64,000 nucleotides of DNA from Desulfosporosinus nitroreducens (GTDB taxonomy: Bacteria; Bacillota; Desulfitobacteriia; Desulfitobacteriales; Desulfitobacteriaceae): assembly GCF_023897015.1 (NCBI RefSeq), contig NZ_JAMHFY010000015.1, positions 1 to 64,000 of the forward strand. The letters are read 5' to 3'. Of this stretch, positions 37,363 to 48,275 are shown piece by piece; the first letter of the stretch is position 1, and every line of letters begins with the position of its first letter. The notes under the pieces are model-generated. The model did not search any database. It worked only from the letters and a program-made list of their open reading frames with translations, and had not been told where the DNA came from. A program made the position numbers and the translations under genes.

Positions 37363-38738
37363 AACAGACATTTTCGCTCCTGCAAAGGATTAGACAATTG
37401 TTCGCAATTTTGTGGCCTATCCTGGTTGCACAAGTTACAATGTTTTCCATGAGTTTTTTTGATACTGTCATGTCTGGACAAGCAAGCACTCCAGATTTGG
37501 CGGGAGTCGCAATCGGTTCCAGCGTATGGGTGCCAATAGGTGCTGGTATAGGCGGAATTTTCGTAGCTGTAACTCCAATTGTTGCTCAATTAATTGGGGC
37601 GAGGCATAAAAAAGATATAGCTTTCCAAGTAATGCAGGGGATTTATTTAGCATTGTTGATTTCAATTCTAGTTATAGCTGGAGGGGCCTTTGCTTTAGAT
37701 CCAATTCTTTCGCTCATGGGGTTGGAGGATAACGTACTTCGAATTTCACGCAGTTACTTGTTGGCACTTGCCTGTGGAATTCCGGCACTCTTTGTATATC
37801 AAGTTTTGCGGGCATTTATCGATGCGTTGGGGAAAACCAGAGTAACTATGATGATTGCCGTATTGTCATTACCAATTAACGTGTCCCTGAATTATGTTCT
37901 TATTTTTGGGAAAATTGGTTTTTCAGCCTTAGGCGGTGTTGGGGCTGGTGTAGCATCGGCACTTACTTATTGGTGTATGTTGCTTATAACCCTGACGATT
38001 ATCCTGCGTCAGGAATCCTTCACACCCTATCAAGTATTCAGACATTGGTATTGTATATCGCTCAAGGAATGGAAAGAGCAATTAAAGATTGGTCTGCCGA
38101 TTGGTTTTGCAATTTTCGTAGAGACCAGTATCTTTGCGGTCGTTGCTTTACTGATGAGCACGTTTAATACTGTGACTATTGCCGCTCATCAGGTAGCTAT
38201 GAATTTCGCTACACTGCTCTATATGGTACCCCTTAGCATTTCCTCGGCATTAACTATTGTGGTGGGGTTTGAAGTTGGGGCTAAGCGTCATAGGGATGCG
38301 CGTCAGTACAGCTATCTTGGCATGGGGATGTCCATAGGAATGGCCTGTATTTGTGCCTCAGTTCTTTTGCTCTTTAGTGAACAAGTGGCTTCTTTATATT
38401 CTCGAGAAGTTGCAGTTATTCAAATGGCCCAGCATTTTCTGGTTTTTGCCTTATTCTTCCAACTATCTGATGCCATTGCAGCTCCAATCCAGGGAGCGCT
38501 GCGGGGCTATAAAGATGTCAATGTTACGTTCCTCATGGCCTGTATCTCCTACTGGGTTATTGGATTACCGTCTGGATACTATATGGCTAGTTATACTACG
38601 CTCGGGGCAACGGGTTATTGGATTGGTTTAGTTCTGGGATTGGCTGTGAGTGCTATTGGTTTATTAGGGCGTCTTTTAGTCGTACAGAGCCGACACAAAA
38701 CCCTAGAAGCTGCCTCTTCAGAGAAAAAAAGGATATAA
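37359..38738 (+). CDS. MATE-family efflux transporter
   Basis: 459 residues with about 12 hydrophobic helices in two similar halves. Motifs are WPILVAQVTMFSMSFFDTVM with the following SGQASTPDLAGVAIG, and GLPIGFAIFVETSIFAVVAL at the start of the second half; both are typical of the NorM/YdhE branch. It exports cationic drugs or dyes using a sodium or proton gradient. The start overlaps topB, so the two are co-translated. Its last codons (SSEKKRI) overlap the promoter-like remnant of a helicase gene described separately. Confidence 0.92.
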   Translation: MKQTFSLLQRIRQLFAILWPILVAQVTMFSMSFFDTVMSGQASTPDLAGVAIGSSVWVPIGAGIGGIFVAVTPIVAQLIGARHKKDIAFQVMQGIYLALLISILVIAGGAFALDPILSLMGLEDNVLRISRSYLLALACGIPALFVYQVLRAFIDALGKTRVTMMIAVLSLPINVSLNYVLIFGKIGFSALGGVGAGVASALTYWCMLLITLTIILRQESFTPYQVFRHWYCISLKEWKEQLKIGLPIGFAIFVETSIFAVVALLMSTFNTVTIAAHQVAMNFATLLYMVPLSISSALTIVVGFEVGAKRHRDARQYSYLGMGMSIGMACICASVLLLFSEQVASLYSREVAVIQMAQHFLVFALFFQLSDAIAAPIQGALRGYKDVNVTFLMACISYWVIGLPSGYYMASYTTLGATGYWIGLVLGLAVSAIGLLGRLLVVQSRHKTLEAASSEKKRI

Positions 38739-38748
38739 TGTTATCTAA

Positions 38749-38859
38749 GCATTCTCATTCAATCAGCTTGGGCTCGACGGATCATTGGTTAATGCTCTCA
38801 AACAACAAGGAATTGTTGAACCGGCTCCCCTCCTCTTAAGTTTAAATCTTCTTGACTAA
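38749..38859 (+). pseudogene. Remnant of the 5' end of a DEAD-box helicase gene
   Basis: The reading frame starting at 38752 gives FSFNQLGLDGSLVNALKQQG then IVEPAPLLLS and a stop. It matches the N-terminus of the intact DEAD-box helicase at 52482 (FNQLGLDESLVNALKLQG, IVEPTAIQEQ), and the DNA is also clearly similar over about 70 bases. The AAAAAGGATATAATG upstream of the intact gene, including its -10 box, is also present here (38725-38740). No start codon precedes the fragment in frame and homology stops after IVEP, so it is a decayed partial copy. Confidence 0.8.
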
Positions 38860-38877
38860 TAGCAATACTCCGAAAAT

Positions 38878-38933
38878 TAAGTCTTGGTGACTCGTTTAAG
38901 TCTTGGTGACTTAAATGAGTCGCCGAGACTTAA
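38878..38933. promoter_or_regulatory. Three tandem TAAGTC-N5-GACTTA operators upstream of the BCCT gene
   Basis: Three copies of one palindromic site: TAAGTC-TTGGT-GACTC at 38878-38893, TTAAGTC-TTGGT-GACTTAA at 38896-38914 and GAGTC-GCCGA-GACTTAA at 38917-38933. Their centres are 19 bp apart. They lie about 160-215 bp upstream of the sigma-54 promoter at 39095, the usual enhancer distance. The same site occurs three times upstream of the methyltransferase operon. I infer they bind the sigma-54 activator encoded at 42450-43871. Confidence 0.8.
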
Positions 38934-38955
38934 TAATTTGTGATGGAAAAGTTCT

Positions 38956-38984
38956 AATCCTTAAATTACTCTGAGTTAAGGATT
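38956..38984 (+). other. Hairpin between operator cluster and sigma-54 promoter
   Basis: AATCCTTAA (38956-38964) / TTAAGGATT (38976-38984), a 9-bp stem with an 11-base loop, followed by TTC only. It could be a weak terminator isolating the BCCT gene from upstream transcription. Confidence 0.45.
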
Positions 38985-39094
38985 TTCAAGCGTTTGATAA
39001 ATAGGGCCTGAAAGTTTGGCATAAGTCCTTGAAATACGTACATAGTCCACTGCTATTAAACTTTCTGAGATAACATATTAATTTATGTGATAAT

Positions 39095-39110
39095 TGGCAA
39101 AGAATTTGCA
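39095..39110 (+). promoter_or_regulatory. Sigma-54 (-24/-12) promoter upstream of the BCCT gene
   Basis: TGGCAAAGAATTTGCA: the GG and GC elements are 10 bases apart and the -12 box TTGCA is perfect. It lies about 400 bp before the transporter start, with a short hydrophobic ORF in between. A TTGACA box at 39264-39269 with a loose -10 (TATGCA) could be an additional sigma-A promoter. Confidence 0.75.
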
Positions 39111-39175
39111 ATTAAAGTTGTGGGACAGAAGTTAAGCATTTTATAAAAGGAGGTTTTGATGGTCATTTCAGGGCA

Positions 39176-39280
39176 ATGAAATATTTGAATCAAAGGAGGA
39201 ATAAAAGTAAAGGATTAACGGTATTATTCTCATTTTTCATGATATATCTTTGTATTTCTTTGCTTGACAAATCATTTTAA
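39176..39280 (+). CDS. Possible small hydrophobic protein (34 aa)
   Basis: ATG at 39176 opens a 34-codon frame, with basic N-terminal residues (MKYLNQRRNKSK) followed by a single hydrophobic segment (GLTVLFSFFMIYLCISLL), the design of a small membrane protein. It overlaps, in ATGA fashion, the stop of a six-codon frame at 39159 that has a perfect AAAGGAGG site. It lies on the sigma-54 transcript before the transporter gene. No homologue is known to me and it could be chance, so confidence is low. Confidence 0.35.
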   Translation: MKYLNQRRNKSKGLTVLFSFFMIYLCISLLDKSF

Positions 39281-39514
39281 ACTTTATGCAAGTCTAGTGA
39301 GGTAAAAAATAGCTATACTAAGGCCGATAACCTAGGGTTCTTAACGGGCATCAGCATAGGAGGATTGTTTTTCACTGACCTGAAAATACCAAGAAGGTAA
39401 TAACCAAGGATTTGCTTTCGTAACACATACTATAGATAGACACGTGGAATTTATCAGCTGACGTATCTTCTTAAACCCGGTTCTCAGATTAAATCACAAG
39501 AAAGGGTGAAAAAC

Positions 39515-41098
39515 TTGTTACAAGAGAATCTGGAAAAAATACCTAAATCTAAAGGTAAATCTGTTCTTATTAATCCTGTTGTTTTCTGGGGCAGTGCTAT
39601 TTTATGCGTTGTGTTATATGCCCCAATGCTTATTTTTGGTAAAGAACTGCAACCCTATGTTTCAACCATATTAAAAGCTATAACCTATAAAATGGACTGG
39701 TTATGGTTATTATTTGCTTTGGGCTGTGTAGTGTTTTCACTTTGGTTGGCTTTTGGCAGATATGGCAATGTAAAATTGGGCGGAAAAGATGATAAGCCTG
39801 AATTCTCAGACTTCAGCTGGATATCGATGATGTTCACTGGCGGTGTCGGAGCAGGTTTAGTTTATTGGTCCATGGCCGAGCCTATTTTTTATCTTAAGTG
39901 GCCTCCTTTCTGGGGTGAGGCATTTTCAGCGCAAGCTGCGCAATTCTCTATTGCTTATGGAATATTTCACTGGGGTATTACGGCATGGGCTATCTTTGTA
40001 CCAGGGGCCATCGCCTTTGCCTACATGCTTCACGTAAGAAAAAAACCCTACTTCTACCCAAGCTATGCTTGCAGGGGAGTATTGGGGGACCGGGTTGATG
40101 GATGGCTTGGCAGAGCTATCGATATCTTTGTTGTTATCGGTCTGGTAGGCGGATTAGGAACAACCTTAGGAACGGTTATACCTATGATGGCGGCTGTAAG
40201 CGCCGATATGCTGGGTATTGAGAATTCTATGACGGTAAAAGTTGCGGTCACACTGGTGGTTGCAGCGGTATTTACCTATAGCGCTTACTCCGGTTTAAAT
40301 AGCGGAATTAAAAAGTTATCGGAATTAAATAGTTGGTTATGTATGGGATTATTAGCGTTTGTTATGCTTGTAGGCCCCACCTTATTTATGTTATCCTTTT
40401 ATGTTGACAGCCTAGGGGTTTTGGCTACTAACTTTTTACGGATGAGTTTATATACAGATCCGATTACCAAATCTGGTTTTCCTCAAGACTGGACAGTATT
40501 TTACTGGGCCTGGTGGGCAGCATGGGCCATGTATTTCGGATTATTTGTTGCCAGGATCTCCAAGGGGAGAACGATAAAAAACGTTGTTATAAATATGATG
40601 GTTATAACGACAATCGGCTGTTCACTGTTCTTCTTAGTGTTCGGCACCTATGCAGTAGATCTTCAGCTTAATCAAGGGATAGCACTTGATAAGACTATGG
40701 TGGAGGCCGGTGCCGGGGCAATGATTAGCCAAGTCTTGCATACCTTACCCTTAACCGGAATAGTGATTCCCTATTTCTTATTTGTAATGCTTATTTTCCA
40801 AGCTACTACCATTGATTCCAATGCGTATATTATTTCAATGATTTCTAGCAAAGAGGTTAGGAATGATCAGGAATCTCCCCGCTGGACAAGACTTTTCTGG
40901 TGTGCACTCCTTGCTGTGATCGGGGTGGCTATCATGATGGTGGGCGGATTACCCGTAGTTCAGCTTTCATCTGTTGCCACCAGCGTACCCATTATATTTA
41001 TTATCATTATCTTAGGGATGTCCTTATGCAAGTGGCTTAAGGAGGATTTCGGCCAAGAAACAAAAGTGCAAGTTGTCGATTATCAGGAAGAAGACTAA
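39515..41098 (+). CDS. BCCT-family betaine/carnitine/choline transporter
   Basis: About 527 residues with 12 hydrophobic helices. BCCT landmarks: FTGGVGAGLVYWSMAEPIFY, the FHWGITAWAIF stretch and the tryptophan-rich motif VFYWAWWAAWAMYFGLF with ARISKGRTIK. These motifs line the quaternary-ammonium site of BetP-like carriers. It imports glycine betaine, carnitine or a related compound by ion symport or exchange. TTG at 39515 has AAAGGGTG eight bases upstream; GTG at 39506 overlaps that site. Its promoter region carries the same operators as the downstream methyltransferase operon, so the import and demethylation genes are co-regulated. Confidence 0.93.
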   Translation: MLQENLEKIPKSKGKSVLINPVVFWGSAILCVVLYAPMLIFGKELQPYVSTILKAITYKMDWLWLLFALGCVVFSLWLAFGRYGNVKLGGKDDKPEFSDFSWISMMFTGGVGAGLVYWSMAEPIFYLKWPPFWGEAFSAQAAQFSIAYGIFHWGITAWAIFVPGAIAFAYMLHVRKKPYFYPSYACRGVLGDRVDGWLGRAIDIFVVIGLVGGLGTTLGTVIPMMAAVSADMLGIENSMTVKVAVTLVVAAVFTYSAYSGLNSGIKKLSELNSWLCMGLLAFVMLVGPTLFMLSFYVDSLGVLATNFLRMSLYTDPITKSGFPQDWTVFYWAWWAAWAMYFGLFVARISKGRTIKNVVINMMVITTIGCSLFFLVFGTYAVDLQLNQGIALDKTMVEAGAGAMISQVLHTLPLTGIVIPYFLFVMLIFQATTIDSNAYIISMISSKEVRNDQESPRWTRLFWCALLAVIGVAIMMVGGLPVVQLSSVATSVPIIFIIIILGMSLCKWLKEDFGQETKVQVVDYQEED

Positions 41099-41138
41099 TC
41101 ATAACAGGGCTGTCGCAGTAAGACCAGCCCGGAAAATA

Positions 41139-41173
41139 GCAAAAGGCGGCTTCTGCCAGAAGCCGCCTTTTGC
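41139..41173 (+). terminator. Strong terminator-like hairpin after the BCCT gene
   Basis: A perfect 16-bp GC-rich stem, GCAAAAGGCGGCTTCT (41139-41154) / AGAAGCCGCCTTTTGC (41158-41173), with a 3-base loop. The U-rich part is inside the stem. Confidence 0.75.
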
Positions 41174-41210
41174 CGTCAAATAAATAACGAGGTTGAATAA
41201 GTAAAAGTAT

Positions 41211-41249
41211 CCAAAAGAGGATGGCTGATCACGGCCATCCTCTTTTTGG
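41211..41249 (+). terminator. Second terminator after the BCCT gene
   Basis: CCAAAAGAGGATGGC (41211-41225) pairs with GCCATCCTCTTTTTGG (41234-41249), with the T run in the 3' arm. It lies 40 bases after the first hairpin, a tandem arrangement between convergent genes. Confidence 0.8.
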
Positions 41250-41327
41250 TACTATCAGAAAGTATAAAACTTCGTTATTATACTTTCTAAGCATAAGTGC
41301 AACTATGGCAACCGCCTGCGCCTGCGG

Positions 41328-41351
41328 CTTGGCGCCGGCCAAGTTTTCTTT
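41328..41351 (+). repeat. CTTGGC/GCCAAG hairpin, copy 1
   Basis: CTTGGC-GCCG-GCCAAG followed by TTTTCTTT, preceded by a GC-rich stretch (CCGCCTGCGCCTGCGG). A similar element flanks the other side of the LysR gene at 42407. On the plus strand it has the shape of a terminator, but the neighbouring genes run on the minus strand. Confidence 0.5.
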
Positions 41352-41402
41352 ATAGTGTTCTTTCCACAGATAAAGAGACTTCTTACGTTTTAGTTGCTAT
41401 TT

Positions 41403-42308
41403 TTAAATGGGTGCGGCAATTTTACACATGGATTTAAGGGCTTCTATAAATTCTTTTTCTACTTGAGAAACAGCGTATCGGTTCGACCTTATTAAACCAA
41501 CGGTTATCCCTAGACTAACATCACTAATGGGAATAGGTATTATTTCTCCTGATTGCAAGTATATATCGTTAGTCGACATGAACTTGGGAAAGAAGGATAT
41601 AGCAATTCCTTGAGAAACGACTCTTTTGATGAGTTCAAAATTACAGAATCTAAACACCACATTTGGTTCGCCGTACTGTTTCAATATACTTGTAATGCCC
41701 CCATTATTCTTTGTAAATTCGTCATTATAGGCAACAAAGGGATATTCAAGTGCTTCTTTCAAAGAGACTGATTCTTTTGCAGAGAGAGGAGAATCTTTTC
41801 CAGCATATATCAAAAATTCATCTGAGAATAATTCCTCTCTGCAAATGTCTTTTCCTTGGATTTCTTCAGTTAAAAGAACAATCCCAAGATCATTCTTGCC
41901 AGATTGGATATTTTGCAGAATAGTTATTGACTCAGCTACTGTCAAGACAATATTAATATTAGGATGCTTATTTTTCAAGAGATATAAAACGTGTGGTATT
42001 ATCTTGTCACCCATACTAGGTATTATCCCGACCGATAGGCTGCCAGTTAAATCCGAGGTGTTTGCGATCTGTTTAATTTCCTCAACCGTATCCAGAATAT
42101 AACGTGCTTTTTCAATAATCATCTCACCAATTGCTGTCGGGTAAGCGCCTTGCGTGGTACGTTTGAAAAGTGCTGTCCCTAGTTCGTCTTCAAGTTTGCT
42201 AATCGATGAACTGACTGCCGGTTGGGTAATAAAGGCGTGTTCCGCTGCCAGAGTTATAGAGTTGTATTTAGCTACTTCGATTAAAAGGGATAATTGTTCC
42301 AATCTCAT
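41403..42308 (-). CDS. LysR-family transcriptional regulator
   Basis: 301 residues. The N-terminal helix-turn-helix (MRLEQLSLLIEVAKYNSITL then AAEHAFITQPAVSSSISKLE) is characteristic, and the C-terminal effector domain has LSVGIIPSMGDKIIPHVLYL. The ATG at 42308 has GGAGG upstream; ten extra residues from an earlier start are not supported. It stands between the BCCT gene (convergent) and the sigma-54 activator. Its target and ligand are unknown; a role in betaine or amine metabolism is inferred only from location. Confidence 0.9.
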   Translation of the reverse strand: MRLEQLSLLIEVAKYNSITLAAEHAFITQPAVSSSISKLEDELGTALFKRTTQGAYPTAIGEMIIEKARYILDTVEEIKQIANTSDLTGSLSVGIIPSMGDKIIPHVLYLLKNKHPNINIVLTVAESITILQNIQSGKNDLGIVLLTEEIQGKDICREELFSDEFLIYAGKDSPLSAKESVSLKEALEYPFVAYNDEFTKNNGGITSILKQYGEPNVVFRFCNFELIKRVVSQGIAISFFPKFMSTNDIYLQSGEIIPIPISDVSLGITVGLIRSNRYAVSQVEKEFIEALKSMCKIAAPI

Positions 42309-42406
42309 AAAATACCTCCGCCTGCATACCAAGCTCATTTCTAGAAAAAGTCGGAAGACTTGGCCATCCGTGGCGCACTCTCTAAAGATGCCGCATGCGC
42401 TGGTGG

Positions 42407-42426
42407 CTTGGTCGTAGCCAAGTTTT
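42407..42426 (+). repeat. CTTGG/CCAAG hairpin, copy 2
   Basis: CTTGG-TCGTAG-CCAAG followed by TTTT, preceded by GCATGCGCTGGTGG. It resembles the element at 41328 in order of parts (GC-rich run, GGCTTGG, GCCAAGTTTT). It lies between the LysR gene and the sigma-54 activator, both on the minus strand. A related ACTTGGCCA fragment is at 42358. Confidence 0.45.
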
Positions 42427-42449
42427 GGGTATAACTCTTTTAATTGCTT

Positions 42450-43871
42450 TTAAGTTTCTTGGCTGGTAGTACAGCTTTGTTTATAGTTACGTACAATCCT
42501 AGTTACTTTACTCTGGCTGATATTCAAAGTGGTTGCAACTTTATAAGAGCTTCCCAGCATGTTATATAATCTAATTATGATTGCCTCTTCGTCACTTGAT
42601 TTCTTGAGATTCTTCCAATTCGACAGCTCGTCTTGCAGCATGTTTGCATTTAATGGGACAGATGGTATTTTGAAAATTTTACTGGGTAAATGTTCAGGTA
42701 AAATATTTCCTTCCGGAATTGTAACTACCAATCGTTCTGCTAGGTGCTCCATTTCACGAATGTTGCCAGGCCATGAATAATTTTTGAGGATAGTAAGAGT
42801 TTGCTTATCGAACTTATGAGAGTATTTATACATTAAATCGTATTTATTTATGAAGAACTGTAATAATGGAATAATATCCTCGGATCTATCCCTTAAGGGG
42901 GGAGTATCGATTTCGATAACGCTCAACCTGTAATATAGATCCTCGCGGAACTTACCTTCTTCAATTAATTGAACTAAATTTCGATTTGTTGCTGCAATAA
43001 TCCGTATGTTAATTTTCTTATGCTCTTTTCCGCCGACGGGAATAAATCTATGCTCCTGAATAAGCTCTAACAACTTTGCTTGAATTCCCAAGGGAATTTC
43101 GCCGATTTCGTCAAGAAATAGAGTTCCGCCGTTTGCCAGTTCGACTAAACCAACCTTTCCATACTTGTCTGCTCCTGTGAAAGCACCTCTGCAATAACCG
43201 AATAGCTCTGATTCTAAAAGGTGCTCGGGAATAGTAGCACCGTTAATACAAATAAAGGGCCCTTCTTTTCGATCGCTAATTTTATGAATATCCATTGCTA
43301 AGACGTTTTTTCCGGTCCCAGATTCCCCTAGGATTAAGACCGTTGAATTTACCAGGGCTACCCTCTGTACAACTTCTAAGCACAACTTCATTTTCTCATC
43401 GCGAAAAGAGTATCCTTTAAAATAACTAACTTGCTGGCTTAATTCATCAACTTTGTTCTTATAATGTTTAACGAGTTTTTTAGTTTCATCTAGGTCCTGT
43501 TTCAATTGTTCAATTTGAGTGATATCGCGACTGTTCATAACAATGAAGTCAACTTCACCACTCTCATTAATAACTGGAGTAGCAGTCACAACCAGTTTGA
43601 TTCCAGATCTGGTTTGTTGTTCTACTGTAACAGTTTGTTTGTTTCTAAAAACAATGGGGGCAAGTGCAGGCGAATAGTATCCCTCGTTTAATAAATAGTT
43701 AAAGTTTTTCCCAATGATCTCGGAAGGGGCTAAACCATAATGTTTCTTGCATACTTCGTTCACATAGGTAACTATTCCCTTGTTGTTAACAACGAAAATT
43801 TCATCAAATGAATTGTCTAATATCATTTTTAATTCTTCTCTATCCAAACTGTTTTCGTTAATATCTACCAA
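42450..43871 (-). CDS. PAS-domain sigma-54 activator of the betaine/methylamine genes
   Basis: About 473 residues. The N-terminal PAS domain (MILDNSFDEIFVVNNKGIV) could sense a small molecule. A coiled-coil-like linker (about 120-150) leads to the AAA+ domain with Walker A GESGTGKN, sigma-54 contact motif GAFTGA, Walker B GGTLFLDEIGE and [10 protein letters not shown]. The C-terminal helix-turn-helix (SSYKVATTLNISQSKVTRIV) is of the TyrR/PrdR type. The start is probably TTG at 43871, spaced 9 bases from GGGAG; a TTG at 43880 abuts that site. It is divergent from the methyltransferase operon, and two sigma-54 promoters with shared operators flank it, so I infer it activates both. Confidence 0.92.
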   Translation of the reverse strand: MVDINENSLDREELKMILDNSFDEIFVVNNKGIVTYVNEVCKKHYGLAPSEIIGKNFNYLLNEGYYSPALAPIVFRNKQTVTVEQQTRSGIKLVVTATPVINESGEVDFIVMNSRDITQIEQLKQDLDETKKLVKHYKNKVDELSQQVSYFKGYSFRDEKMKLCLEVVQRVALVNSTVLILGESGTGKNVLAMDIHKISDRKEGPFICINGATIPEHLLESELFGYCRGAFTGADKYGKVGLVELANGGTLFLDEIGEIPLGIQAKLLELIQEHRFIPVGGKEHKKINIRIIAATNRNLVQLIEEGKFREDLYYRLSVIEIDTPPLRDRSEDIIPLLQFFINKYDLMYKYSHKFDKQTLTILKNYSWPGNIREMEHLAERLVVTIPEGNILPEHLPSKIFKIPSVPLNANMLQDELSNWKNLKKSSDEEAIIIRLYNMLGSSYKVATTLNISQSKVTRIVRNYKQSCTTSQET

Positions 43872-44024
43872 TTTCGACAACTCCCTTTTTGCTATGTCAT
43901 CAAAGCGTAATTAGAAAATAACATGTATTTCATCACTTACTAGTCATTACATAGAGAGTTAGTATAAAAAAGCAAAATTATTTGATGATTAGATTTATTC
44001 GTTTAAGATGACGCAAAATCCTGC

Positions 44025-44070
44025 AACGCTAGAATATATAAGTCAGTCTGACTTAGAATATTCTAGCGTT
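44025..44070. promoter_or_regulatory. 46-bp inverted repeat containing a TAAGTC-N5-GACTTA operator
   Basis: The arms AACGCTAGAATAT (from 44025) and ATATTCTAGCGTT (to 44070) extend a perfect 17-bp core palindrome TAAGTC-AGTCT-GACTTA at 44039-44055. Only one base breaks the symmetry. It lies about 160 bp upstream of the sigma-54 promoter at 44212, and its core is the site found three times before the BCCT gene. The likely function is as upstream activator site, possibly also controlling the divergent regulator gene. Confidence 0.8.
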
Positions 44071-44211
44071 TCATGCCTGAAACCAAAAAAATGGATATTA
44101 TTTAGACGATATTGTTTGGAATAATACACTAAATAGAGCTTTAAGCTTTATATTTAACGTCATTATGCTTATGAGAACATTTTTTATGTTTGGCAATTCA
44201 AAATCTTATGA

Positions 44212-44227
44212 CGGCATGAAAATTGCA
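44212..44227 (+). promoter_or_regulatory. Sigma-54 (-24/-12) promoter of the methyltransferase operon
   Basis: CGGCATGAAAATTGCA: GG and GC are 10 bases apart, the -12 box TTGCA is perfect and the -24 box has one mismatch (C for T). It lies 300 bp before the first methyltransferase gene. Confidence 0.72.
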
Positions 44228-44308
44228 TTATAATTTATGTAAGTTCCCTAAGAGTTAAATTGAATAAATTGTTTAAGCCATACCATCGTATGTATCTGAA
44301 TGAGTGAA

Positions 44309-44333
44309 TCAGTTATCAGTTATCAGTTATCAG
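44309..44333. repeat. Triple heptamer direct repeat
   Basis: AGTTATC is repeated three times in tandem (44311-44331), flanked by TC and AG, in the leader of the methyltransferase operon. Possibly slippage-prone sequence; no function is evident. Confidence 0.6.
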
Positions 44334-44418
44334 AGAATCGGTGGGATATTTGGAACAAGGAATACAGAGAGGTGGTGTAATTACATCTAAACTTGGGAAA
44401 TTCTTAAGATATTTATAG

Positions 44419-44456
44419 CAAGTCAAGTTGACTCTGTCTTAAGTCAATTTGACTTA
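44419..44456. promoter_or_regulatory. Two further TAAGTC-N5-GACTTA sites before the first methyltransferase gene
   Basis: CAAGTC-AAGTT-GACTCT at 44419-44435 (imperfect) and TAAGTC-AATTT-GACTTA at 44440-44456 (perfect palindrome) have centres 21 bp apart, two helical turns. They lie downstream of the sigma-54 promoter and about 75 bp before the gene, so they could mediate repression, looping or an unrecognised second promoter. Confidence 0.72.
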
Positions 44457-44528
44457 GGGGCTTTAAGGGTCTAAGGCCAATTAATACCTTGAGATTCGCG
44501 TTAAGTTATGATAAGAGAGGGTGTAATA

Positions 44529-45953
44529 ATGGCTTTAAAATCAAGGCTGGAAGTATTAACGAAGGATGATTTATTGCGGGTTCATGAAGCAACTTTAAAA
44601 ATTCTTCGTGAAACAGGTGTAGTATTTCATAGTGAGGAAGCTGTCGAAATCTTCAAGAAAAATGGTGCTAGGGTTGAAAATAAAACAGTTTTTATTTCTC
44701 GTGAGATGGTAGATCAAGCCTTAGCAACAGCTCCACGTACTTTCCGCATGCGTGCTCGTAATGAAAAATATTCTATCACCGTTGGTGAAGGTTTTTTAAT
44801 ACAGCCTAATGTAGGTCCGGTTTATATTCAAGACTTGGATAGGGGACGTCGTGAGGCAACTCTTGAGGATTATGCCAATATCCAAAAACTGTGTCAGGCC
44901 AGCGATGTGGTTGATCTGGTAGGCACAATCCCAGTTGATCCCAGTGATGTTAACAGCAACGATAAATATTTACTTATGATGTACGAGGCTTTGAAAAACA
45001 CAGAGAAACCAATTATCGGATTCTGCGCTAATACTCAGCAAGTTCGCGAACAACTGGATATGGTTGAGATTGCTCTGGGTCAACCGGGATTTCTATTAGA
45101 GAACCACTGTACAGCAGTTTTAGTAAATTCCTTAAGTCCTTTAGCCTATGCTCCTGATACTTTGGAAACTATGATTGAATATGCCAAGCGCAATCAAGTT
45201 ATCCTGCTTGCACCTTGTATTATGGCAGGAGTCAGCGGACCAATATCACTATTGGGGACAGCGGTCTTGCAAAATACAGAGACTATCGCGGGATTGGTTT
45301 TGGTTCAATTGGTGAATCCTGGTACTCCTTTGGTTTACGCTACTGCTTCCACCTCAGGATATATGAAAGAGGCTACCTACGCTGCGGGATCGCCAGAAGC
45401 TATGTTAATCAATACTGCCAGCTTGCAAATGGGCTTGGATTTCTACCACTTGCCAGTGAGAACTATGTCAGGAATCACACATTCTAAGACAGTGGATTGC
45501 CAGGCAGGGTATGAAACTATGCAAAGTTTATTGATGGGAATGATGAGCGGAGCTCAGATGTCGGTACAAAGTTTAGGAGTATTAGATGCTATCATGACTA
45601 CCTCCTATGAGAAGTTCGTAATCGATGAAGAACTAATCAGAAGAGTGAGGCGGATATCTCAGGGGATTGACACCTCGGATGAAGCATTGTCAGTTGATGT
45701 TATTCAAGAGGTGGGGCATACTGGGACCTATTTATCCCACATGAGTACCTTCGAAAAATTCCGTTCCCTGTGGACCCCCACAGTTTCGGACTGGGGTAAT
45801 TACAGTGATTGGAAGGGCTCCGGTTCTGAGGATGTCGTGATTCGTGCTAATCGCAGATATAAACAAATACTGCAAAATGCGCCTGAATCCTTACTCGATA
45901 CGGCAATCGATAAAGCTTTATTAAATTTTATCGAGAAAGCTAAGGTCCATTAA
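44529..45953 (+). CDS. MttB-family methyltransferase without pyrrolysine (glycine betaine MtgB-like)
   Basis: 474 residues of the trimethylamine methyltransferase superfamily, TIM-barrel enzymes that move a methyl group from a quaternary or tertiary amine to a corrinoid protein. It aligns with the pyrrolysine form encoded downstream: GSPEAMLINTASLQMGLDFY and SGITHSKTVDCQAGYE. At the position of pyrrolysine it has Ile316, with no amber codon. By family knowledge such proteins (for example Desulfitobacterium MtgB) act on glycine betaine or related betaines. The co-regulated BCCT transporter agrees with this, but carnitine or proline betaine remain possible. The ATG at 44529 has AGAGGG. Confidence 0.88.
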   Translation: MALKSRLEVLTKDDLLRVHEATLKILRETGVVFHSEEAVEIFKKNGARVENKTVFISREMVDQALATAPRTFRMRARNEKYSITVGEGFLIQPNVGPVYIQDLDRGRREATLEDYANIQKLCQASDVVDLVGTIPVDPSDVNSNDKYLLMMYEALKNTEKPIIGFCANTQQVREQLDMVEIALGQPGFLLENHCTAVLVNSLSPLAYAPDTLETMIEYAKRNQVILLAPCIMAGVSGPISLLGTAVLQNTETIAGLVLVQLVNPGTPLVYATASTSGYMKEATYAAGSPEAMLINTASLQMGLDFYHLPVRTMSGITHSKTVDCQAGYETMQSLLMGMMSGAQMSVQSLGVLDAIMTTSYEKFVIDEELIRRVRRISQGIDTSDEALSVDVIQEVGHTGTYLSHMSTFEKFRSLWTPTVSDWGNYSDWKGSGSEDVVIRANRRYKQILQNAPESLLDTAIDKALLNFIEKAKVH

Positions 45954-46113
45954 TAGAACTCTCACTGAGGTTACTTCAACTTATGCCCGGCATAAATAGA
46001 CGGAATTATACAATGAAATCTATTTATAATATTATTTATTTGGTAAGAGTTATTAATTTGTAGTATGAGAAATTGCTGAGGATCTATTTAGTAATCTTAA
46101 GGAGGATTATAGG

Positions 46114-46746
46114 ATGAGTGATTTTGATCAATTGGCCGATTATGTATTCAAAGGAAATGCTGCTGCAGTAAAAGACCTAACCCAAAAAATGGTGGATGCT
46201 GGTGGCAACCCCATGGAAATTATCTCTAAAGGTTTACTGATTGGTATGGACATTGTTACCCCAAAATTTAAAGCGGGCGAAATGTATGTACCGGAAGTTA
46301 TGATGTCTGCTAAAGCTCTATCTGAGGGTATGAATATAGTAAAACCGTTGCTGACAGGGGCAGACATTGCTGTAAGCAAAACGATTATCATTGGAACCGT
46401 TGCCGGAGACCTCCATGACATTGGCAAGAACTTAGTTGTGATGATTATGGAGAGCGGTGGCTTTAATGTAGTGGATCTGGGTGTTGATGTATCGCCTGAG
46501 AAGTTTGTGGCTGCTATTAAAGAGCATAATGCTAAAATCGTCGGTTTATCGGCGCTCTTAACTACAACGATGCTTAATATGAAGGTAACTATTGATCTTA
46601 TTAAGAAGGAAGGTCTGCGTGACGAAGTTAAAATTCTTGTAGGTGGAGCACCAGTTTCTAAAAGTTTTGCCGATGAAGTTGGAGCTGATGGTTATTGTGC
46701 AGATGCCATGGCAGCTAAAGAAATGGCTACCATGTACTTAAACTAA
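46114..46746 (+). CDS. Corrinoid (methyl-accepting) protein, MttC/MtgC-like
   Basis: 210-residue two-domain protein. The N-terminal helical cap (MSDFDQLADYVFKGNAAAVK) is followed by a B12-binding Rossmann domain with the DxHxxG motif at 99-104 (GDLHDIGKNLV, His101 being the lower cobalt ligand), the second motif in GLSALLTTTM and the third in LVGGAPVSK. It accepts methyl groups from the flanking methyltransferases and passes them to a methylcorrinoid:acceptor methyltransferase that is not encoded here. AAGGAGG precedes the ATG. It lies between the two methyltransferase genes and may serve both. Confidence 0.95.
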   Translation: MSDFDQLADYVFKGNAAAVKDLTQKMVDAGGNPMEIISKGLLIGMDIVTPKFKAGEMYVPEVMMSAKALSEGMNIVKPLLTGADIAVSKTIIIGTVAGDLHDIGKNLVVMIMESGGFNVVDLGVDVSPEKFVAAIKEHNAKIVGLSALLTTTMLNMKVTIDLIKKEGLRDEVKILVGGAPVSKSFADEVGADGYCADAMAAKEMATMYLN

Positions 46747-46802
46747 TTAGGTTCTAATATTGAGTCGAAAATTTATAGGAAGAATCATAGGAGGTGGAAT
46801 AA

Positions 46803-48275
46803 TTGAGAAGTGAAGTTCAAGCAGGAGTTTCGAAATTTGAGGGCTTCGGACTCAATATATTTTCGGAGAATGAACTTTATGATATCCACAGTGGAACGTT
46901 GGAGGTATTAGAAAAAACCGGAATCAAGGTGGAATCCAAAGAGGCGTTAGAAATTTTTGCGGCAGGGGGAGCTCATGTTGATTTTCAAACTCGCGTAGTC
47001 AAGATACCTCCTCACATCGTAGAAGACGCTATTCGCTCTGCTCCTAATACAGTGTTATTAGCTGGGCGAAATCCGAAACACGACATTGTCTTAGGCGGCA
47101 AGAGGGTTCATTTCATAAATTTTGGTGAAGGTGTCTCAATCATCGATCCGTATACCAAAGAGTATCGGAAGACTACTAAGCAGGATGTAGCTAATATTTC
47201 GCGCTTTTGTGATGCAATGAGTGAAATGGATGCAGTTTTACGTCCGGTGGCTCCTCAGGATGTACCGGCAGAGGCTGCTGTGGTTCATAATGCCGAGGTT
47301 ATCTTCAATAATACTTCCAAGCATGTATTTATCGGTACTGAAGGTGGAAAAAACTTTAAAAAGGTTCTGAAGATGGCTGCTGCCATAGTCGGTGGAGAAG
47401 AAAAGTTGCGGGAAAGACCAATCTTCTCGTGCAATGTTTGCCCGACAAGCCCGTTACAATTAGTAGGCCACTGTACTGAAGTAATTATTGAAGGTGCCCG
47501 GGCTGGTATAGCAGTAAACATACTATCAATGGCTATGGCTGGAGCTACCTCTCCAATTACGTTAGCAGGCAGTCTTGTAACACACAATGCTGAAGTTTTA
47601 AGTGGCATCGTCTTAAGCCAGCTAACCCGCAAGGGAGCACCAGTTATCTATGGCAGTTCAACGACAATCATGGATCTGCGTTTTGCTACGGCACCGGTTG
47701 GATCTCCGGAACTCGGAATGATCAATGCAGGTGTGGCGAAACTTGCCCAGTTTTACTTACTGCCAAGCTGGGTAGCAGGTGGCTAGGTAGATAGCAAACT
47801 TCCGGATGCCCAGGCATCTCATGAGTTTACAATTACCGCTATGCTGACAGCGTTGGCAGGGTCCAACCTGATCTATGGTGCGGGTATGTTAGAACTCGGC
47901 ATTACCTATGACTATGCACAAATGGTAATGGATAATGAGATGGCTAGGATGATTAAAAAGGCTGTTTGTGGTATAAGTGTGTCTGATGAAACTTTAGCGA
48001 TAGATGTTATTAAGCAGGTAGGAACCGCTGGTAACTTTATTAGCGAAGAGCACACCTTCAAACATATGCGTACACAATCTAAGAGTAATGTTATTGACCG
48101 TCGTATGAGGGATGTTTGGCTGGCGGACGGCGGTAAGGATTTTTCGGAAAGGGCCTATGAAGTGGCTAGGTCAATTTTAGAGAACTATAAACCTGAGTAC
48201 CTGTCTGAAAGTGTTCAAGCTGAATTACGTGCGATAGTAGAAGAAACTGAAAAAGAGTATGGTGTCAATAGTTAA
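46803..48275 (+). CDS. mttB: Trimethylamine:corrinoid methyltransferase with in-frame amber (pyrrolysine)
   Basis: The reading frame runs from TTG at 46803 through a TAG at 47784-47786 to TAA at 48275. Read with pyrrolysine it gives 490 residues with Pyl at 328, close to the position and total size of archaeal MttB. Around the TAG the protein reads WVAGG[12 protein letters not shown], the pattern of MttB active sites, and homology with the family continues without break ([35 protein letters not shown]). The enzyme moves a methyl group from trimethylamine to the corrinoid protein encoded just upstream. A small GATGC/GCATC hairpin lies 18 bases after the TAG. No pyl genes or tRNA-Pyl are in the window; they must be elsewhere. 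GGAGGTGG precedes the start. Confidence 0.92.

Follow-up and report, generated by a model that had tools for sequence, protein, structure and literature searches.

A conserved TAAGTC-N5-GACTTA palindrome at a candidate sigma-54 regulon for methylated-compound metabolism in Desulfosporosinus nitroreducens and its relatives

Genes and proposed operators at the locus

The window analyzed here, a stretch of 64,000 nucleotides of Desulfosporosinus nitroreducens (assembly GCF_023897015.1, contig NZ_JAMHFY010000015.1, positions 1 to 64,000), contains a gene for a BCCT family transporter and a group of corrinoid methyltransferase (mtt) genes, both accompanied by copies of the palindrome TAAGTC-N5-GACTTA and by a sigma-54 promoter. 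Between them lies a gene for a sigma-54 activator with PAS, AAA+ and helix-turn-helix (HTH) domains, the proposed binder of the palindrome. The features are as follows.

38878..38894, no strand: operator copy 1 before the BCCT gene, TAAGTC-N5-GACTCG, its centre preceding the -12 GC by 222 bp
38897..38913, no strand: operator copy 2 before the BCCT gene, perfect, 19 bp from copy 1
38916..38932, no strand: operator copy 3 before the BCCT gene, one mismatch, 19 bp from copy 2
39095..39110, plus strand: sigma-54 promoter of the BCCT gene by sequence match, TGGCAAAGAATTTGCA, a conserved block in an 11-species alignment
39506..41098, plus strand: BCCT family transporter, substrate uncertain (Pfam PF02028, 530 bits)
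41403..42338, minus strand: LysR-type regulator, not conserved with the operators
42450..43880, minus strand: PAS-AAA+-HTH sigma-54 activator with intact GAFTGA, proposed palindrome binder
44039..44055, no strand: perfect operator that precedes the mttB promoter and stands at the tip of an extended inverted repeat (about 44025-44072)
44212..44227, plus strand: sigma-54 promoter of the mtt operon by sequence match, CGGCATGAAAATTGCA, among the most conserved intergenic blocks in 11 species
44419..44435, no strand: mttB downstream doublet, copy 1, three outer-base mismatches
44440..44456, no strand: mttB downstream doublet, copy 2, perfect
44508..45953, plus strand: MttB-superfamily methyltransferase without pyrrolysine (MttB1; Pfam MTTB)
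46114..46746, plus strand: corrinoid protein of the MttC type
46803..48275, plus strand: trimethylamine methyltransferase MttB with an in-frame TAG (pyrrolysine) at codon 328 (TIGR02369)

An earlier, sequence-only reading of this DNA had located six palindromes with a 5-base spacer, and GG-N10-GC elements before the BCCT gene and the first methyltransferase gene. All of these are found where it placed them, and the spacer is 5 in all six copies. Three copies are perfect (38897-38913, 44039-44055 and 44440-44456); the others deviate from the 12 fixed letters in outer bases only, with two mismatches at 38878, one at 38916 and three at 44419, and the AGTC/GACT core is intact in all six. The same reading had described a single regulator gene between the BCCT and methyltransferase genes, but two are present, one for the LysR-type regulator and one for the sigma-54 activator.

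Of the encoded proteins, the second MttB is clearly assigned as a trimethylamine methyltransferase, scoring 759.8 bits with TIGR02369 (cut-off 525), and PylS and tRNA-Pyl are encoded in the genome. The BCCT protein scores above the TIGR00842 cut-off but below the glycine-betaine equivalog, its nearest solved relative being DddT, while MttB1 falls below the only NCBIfam model that it matched and has 2qne and 9yce (glycine betaine methyltransferase) as its nearest, but not close, solved structures. The betaine/methylamine substrate proposed in the sequence-only reading is thus no more than a family-level guess, the betaine part being conjectural. The inducer could be a betaine, trimethylamine or a compound resembling dimethylsulfoniopropionate.

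Plain open-reading-frame calling splits the pyrrolysine-containing gene (46803-48275) in two at the TAG. The genome carries three PylS genes above the family cut-off (C30:31182-31907, C28:30714-31436 and C23:27990-28715; L182-L184) and three tRNA-Pyl genes. The synthetases are 50-73% identical and the tRNAs agree in 55-63 of 72 bases, and these sets are possibly naturally distinct pairs.

Frequency and conservation of the palindrome

Copies were counted in the D. nitroreducens genome (G000, 5.46 Mb) and in a genus set of 29 genomes that includes it, while a class set of 82 genomes was searched for paired copies and an order set of 73 genomes for orthologues of the activator; the reversed pattern of the palindrome in the same genomes served as background control. 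The perfect palindrome occurs four times in G000, three times in the window and once on contig C41, where chance would give 0.54 copies in 5.46 Mb at the base composition of the window (Poisson P 0.002), and no perfect match to the reversed pattern. Three perfect copies inside 5.6 kb correspond to a P of about 3e-11. Across the genus, 35 perfect copies are found against 7 for the reversed pattern: 26 precede BCCT, mtt or mtgA genes, one is a probable deletion scar and 8 lie elsewhere, close to the control total. Furthermore, the class set yields 29 paired copies, with centres 19-22 bp apart, in 15 of the 82 genomes and none for the control; 28 of the 29 sit in BCCT/mtt clusters, one of them (in G029) before a gene of 666 amino acids that is itself upstream of mttC and mtgA, and the remaining one is the scar, in G014. 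On these counts a chance origin of the palindrome was rejected, and the possibility, raised with the sequence-only reading, that it occurs at chance frequency genome-wide does not hold for perfect or paired copies.

The scar (G014:C58:1131-1167, L136) consists of two paired operators flanked by TopB and a helicase gene. The junction lacks the BCCT, activator and mtt genes that separate TopB and helicase in the window, and looks like the remnant of a deletion.

The sites also persist at orthologous loci, where the earlier reading had considered that they might be absent. Near-identical BCCT triplets occur in G011 and G006, a second contig of G027 carries a doublet 165/184 bp before an MttB1-like gene, and spacer-5 sites are kept at mtt or BCCT genes beside the more distant orthologous activators of G009, G029, G031 and G040 (58-65% identity). 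The activator itself is present at an identity of at least 58% in 15 of the 73 order genomes, and a fragment with 68% identity is located at the end of a G024 contig. Proteins at least 61% identical are found in Desulfosporosinus (D. hippei, D. lacus, D. fructosivorans, strains SRJS8 and HMP52, and others) as well as in Acididesulfobacillus acetoxydans and other Bacillota, with 98% identity to the activator of Desulfosporosinus sp. SRJS8.

With distances taken from operator centre to -12 GC, the three BCCT operators of the window lie 184, 203 and 222 bp upstream of their promoter and the 44039 copy lies 178 bp upstream of the mtt promoter, while 44419 and 44440 are downstream of the latter (-202 and -223). 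The earlier placement of operators 160-215 bp upstream of both promoters therefore does not stand as given, 44039 being the one mttB-side copy that precedes its promoter. In the genus, BCCT operators are positioned 161-274 bp upstream, three genomes having a further, third site at 326-328, and the upstream mttB site is 150-252 bp from the -12; in three more distant loci the operators are 71-145 bp from the promoter. The mttB doublet, 164-263 bp downstream of the promoter, is kept in 11 of 11 species, although in G028 a single copy was scored. A leader of about 400 nt (39110-39505) separates the BCCT promoter from its start codon and is probably not essential, since it is largely deleted in G011 and G006.

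The fourth perfect copy in the genome lies on C41 between a corrinoid-protein gene and mtgA, a gene for methyl-tetrahydrofolate (methyl-THF):corrinoid methyltransferase (346 bits with the PRK07535 model, cut-off 259). It precedes by 180 bp the -12 element of a sigma-54 promoter that is near-ideal by sequence, TTGGCACGAAATTTGCA. Because this copy precedes a strong sigma-54 promoter, the regulon likely extends in trans to mtgA. Found 3' of mtgA are an HAD-type gene, a gene for a RACo-type corrinoid activator that scores under the cut-off of the AcsV model, and a gene with weak likeness to MetF. The order mttB-mttC-operator-mtgA is the same in G006, G011, G014 and G027, and in G022 a different gene stands upstream of the operator. 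The mtgA operators are located 148-180 bp before strong sigma-54-like promoters in G000, G006, G011, G014 and G022, whereas in G027 the promoter is weaker and the distance 82 bp. This mtgA arrangement carries most of the case for a regulon in trans.

The probable regulator and the spacing of the half-sites

The adjacent sigma-54 activator is the best candidate for reading the palindrome. It matches Pfam Sigma54_activat with 218 bits and has the Walker A motif (GESGTGK) and GAFTGA loop of a sigma-54 enhancer-binding protein (EBP), both invariant in 12 orthologues, among which the C-terminal segment with the putative HTH is nearly invariant as well. In addition, when the noncoding DNA at 12 activator loci was searched without bias for inverted repeats, AAGTC-N5-GACTT ranked first and was present in all 12. 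The neighboring LysR-type regulator could be considered as the binder instead, since its gene adjoins that of the activator in nine of the 11 close loci compared and LysR proteins bind dyad sites. However, a LysR orthologue (threshold E<=1e-90) is absent from G003, G027, G024 (79% complete) and G029, all four of which keep the operators, and in G009 the LysR gene is about 5 kb away with no site beside it. LysR boxes read T-N11-A, whereas the palindrome, taken at its symmetric 13 bases, is a dyad of the form A-N11-T. A paralogous activator described below shares the half-site, yet no relative of the window LysR stands beside this paralogue in the loci examined. The operators do not follow the LysR gene, which was therefore rejected as the binder, a role we regard as extremely improbable for it. 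As the sites persist without a LysR orthologue and track the activator, the latter is the likely binder, and TAAGTC-N5-GACTTA is very probably the upstream activating sequence (UAS) of the sigma-54 activator at 42450-43880, in line with the binding that the sequence-only reading had inferred.

The paralogous activator is about 46% identical to that of the window and is encoded beside a different pyrrolysine mttB. Sites with the half-sites AAGTC/GACTT, allowing at most one mismatch, were counted by spacing at 16 orthologue and 15 paralogue loci; these loci share descent, some closely (window and G011, 98%), and the counts are not independent trials. Orthologue loci hold 71 sites with spacer 5 (54 different sequences, 44 different spacers), distributed over 15 of the 16 loci, compared to 3 with spacer 6, where shuffled sequence gives 1.4 and 1.1, respectively. 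Locus L181 (G031) has no site in this masked count, its single site falling within an open frame with a probably over-long start. Paralogue loci show the opposite preference, with 32 sites of spacer 6 (27 different) in 15 of 15 loci and a single site of spacer 5 (shuffled, 1.2 and 1.5), and in each of the 15 a sigma-54-like promoter follows a spacer-6 site at a distance of 84-104 bp. In two other groups of activators (9 and 11 loci), whose recognition helices differ, such sites number at most two in total for each spacer from 2 to 9. Taken together, the counts across these four groups indicate that the half-site accompanies the ISQSK helix, whereas its spacing depends on the subfamily. The HTH residues are SSYKVA..ISQS[KR]V in the N5 proteins and SSYEVA..ISQSKA in the N6 proteins, and a 56% relative (L114) is mixed, combining SSYKVA..ISQSKA with N5-spaced sites. 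Genome-wide, exact AAGTCA-N4-TGACTT shows a weak excess in the genus (18 against 12 for the control), so that the N6 motif rests on loci near the paralogue, and the spacer-6 doublet pattern has no match in the 29 genomes.

A different palindrome, AATGC-N6-GCATT, occurs in five of nine loci of activator group B (L158-L166).

From these patterns, there is about an even chance that two paralogous activators of one genome, each acting on its own corrinoid-methyltransferase locus, read the same half-site AAGTC and are separated by N5 versus N6 spacing, with a handful of HTH residues changing in step, and that the N5 activator also works from the doublet downstream of the mttB promoter. The difference in spacing between the paralogues is the newest point of this analysis; together with the conserved downstream doublet, this one-base split is also its most surprising. 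Alternatively, the palindrome may be read by more than one paralogous activator, making the regulon shared instead of private. The common AAGTC half-site would fit such sharing, as would G014, where operators occur together with the paralogue while the assembly yields no orthologue, and the C28 paralogue locus with one spacer-5 site. Nevertheless, the near-exclusive use of one spacer beside each gene (71 to 3 and 32 to 1) makes a shared regulon unlikely.

A number of observations weigh against assigning the palindrome to the N5 activator as its UAS. Tolerating one mismatch gives 17 matches in G000 against 14 for the reversed control, which is near background and means that the signal rests in the perfect and paired copies. 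The 13 one-mismatch copies in this genome include the known target at 38916, and eight of ten others examined (C88 and C95 being outside the ten) lie within open frames. Of the two noncoding copies among the ten, only that on C28 has a sigma-54-like site preceding a gene; this spacer-5 site (G000:C28:42560-42576) is 172 bp before the start of a sigma-54-like promoter at the paralogue locus, where the other sites have spacer 6, possibly through cross-talk or chance. The HTH of the activator scores 15.8 bits with HTH_50, under the Pfam cut-off of 27, and its structure model is poor (mean predicted local distance difference test score of 54), the three terminal helices being of moderate confidence. 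No close activator orthologue is found in the assemblies of G014 and G022 (350 and 510 contigs), which retain operators at mtgA and, in G022, also at BCCT. At the G009 locus there is no qualifying sigma-54 promoter near the sites, G003 and G027 lack the upstream mttB site, and in G028 this site has a 6-base spacer. Finally, a position downstream of the promoter, as seen for the conserved mttB doublet, is unusual for a UAS. This doublet is taken here as a putative enhancer acting from inside the leader, and may instead be a roadblock or an autoregulatory element.

The repeats may also be read as RNA or DNA hairpins, such as a terminator or attenuator, instead of protein sites. In a terminator scan of the BCCT and mttB sites, a 17-pair terminator-like stem with a weak tail (TAATTTGTGA) was scored at the BCCT doublet alone. 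The doublet spacers are mutually complementary beyond shuffled expectation (78 of 110 against 53, P 5e-5; 22 distinct pairs, with 28 doublets used and one in G011 left out), and the 44039 copy lies within a stem with covarying arms, whose covariation score was reached by none of 500 shuffles. On the other hand, the half-site letters are fixed, outer changes are often uncompensated (e.g., TAAGTC...GACTCA) and spacers are poorly complementary in several cases, such as the mttB doublets of G003 and G027 and the two doublets of G029. No Rfam match reached gathering level in 38700-46900. Moreover, BCCT and mtgA sites are upstream of sigma-54 promoters, the half-site spacing tracks the activator subfamily, and the doublet complementarity may stem from hairpin-templated mutation. 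Considering the scan, Rfam, covariation and complementarity results together, an RNA or terminator role was rejected as the main function and is kept as a minor and quite improbable rival to operators bound by the activator.

Many doublets (e.g., 38897-38932) form one large palindrome, their spacers being mutually complementary. Operator 44039 is part of a 19-pair inverted repeat (44025-44072) whose outer arms covary among nine species, with 9 double-changed cells; this repeat may be an RNA hairpin in the activator leader, a cruciform or a product of hairpin-templated mutation.

Proposed regulon and relation to known systems

Conservation, promoters and co-occurrence with the activator bear out the earlier claim that the palindrome marks a conserved sigma-54 regulon of transporter and corrinoid methyltransferase genes. 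With the exception of G009, the targets have a -24/-12 promoter by sequence match and inverted repeats within a few hundred bp of it. In the proposed mechanism, activator dimers would bind single palindromes or side-by-side palindromes with centres about two helical turns apart (19-22 bp), and the AAA+ ring would reach the sigma-54 polymerase through DNA looping. The PAS domain would gate activation by a signal, probably the methylated substrate or its metabolite. The targets in cis would be the BCCT transporter and the mttB-mttC-mttB(Pyl) operon, the latter receiving input from one site upstream of its promoter and from the conserved doublet, which lies in the transcribed leader about 200 bp past the promoter. 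In trans, the activator would act on mtgA with its downstream RACo-type corrinoid-activator gene and weakly MetF-like gene, a gene row presumably expressed as a single transcript.

The regulon would join a transporter, methyltransferases (one with pyrrolysine) and a methyl-THF enzyme, and provides a testable operator, activator and target set for the anaerobic demethylation of methylated compounds in Desulfosporosinus relatives. Many of these genomes hold dozens of related activators, with 45 matches in D. nitroreducens. Judging from the present pair, a difference in spacing may be enough to insulate one such protein from another, a modest point about regulator evolution.

Among the leading results of searches of open-access papers, with supplements and most subscription papers beyond reach, there was no operator described for an activator of this type. 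GabR of Bacillus thuringiensis is reportedly a PAS-AAA+-HTH sigma-54 activator of a catabolic gene that responds to pathway compounds; it has the same domain plan as the window activator but a different substrate and targets, and is a model for PAS sensing only. The best NCBIfam model for the window activator is that of PrdR, the proline reductase activator (NF041552), yet the score of 395 bits is far below the equivalog cut-off of 795.

A close likeness is to the EBP regulons of Clostridiales, in which, according to the main text of the study, the EBP gene lies beside its targets with an inverted-repeat UAS and a -24/-12 promoter, and which were likewise inferred through comparative genomics (Nie et al. 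2019, PMC6615313). There, however, 15 of 39 groups have TGT-N10-12-ACA motifs, and the main text, with motifs shown in figures and supplement, contains neither "betaine" nor "methylamine" nor AAGTC/GACTT. MttB (COG5598) is a listed sigma-54 target in Clostridia, and Desulfosporosinus orientis is very rich in EBPs, but no activator or operator is given for MttB in the accessible portion of that work (PMC12316311). In the sigma-54 regulome of Desulfovibrio vulgaris, as far as its available sections describe, EBP sites are mostly upstream, and the few downstream of a promoter lie at 40-70 bp and are mostly flagellar (PMC4641369), compared to 164-263 bp and a catabolic operon for the doublet described here. 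Overall, the regulon is well supported and is a new one of a type already known.

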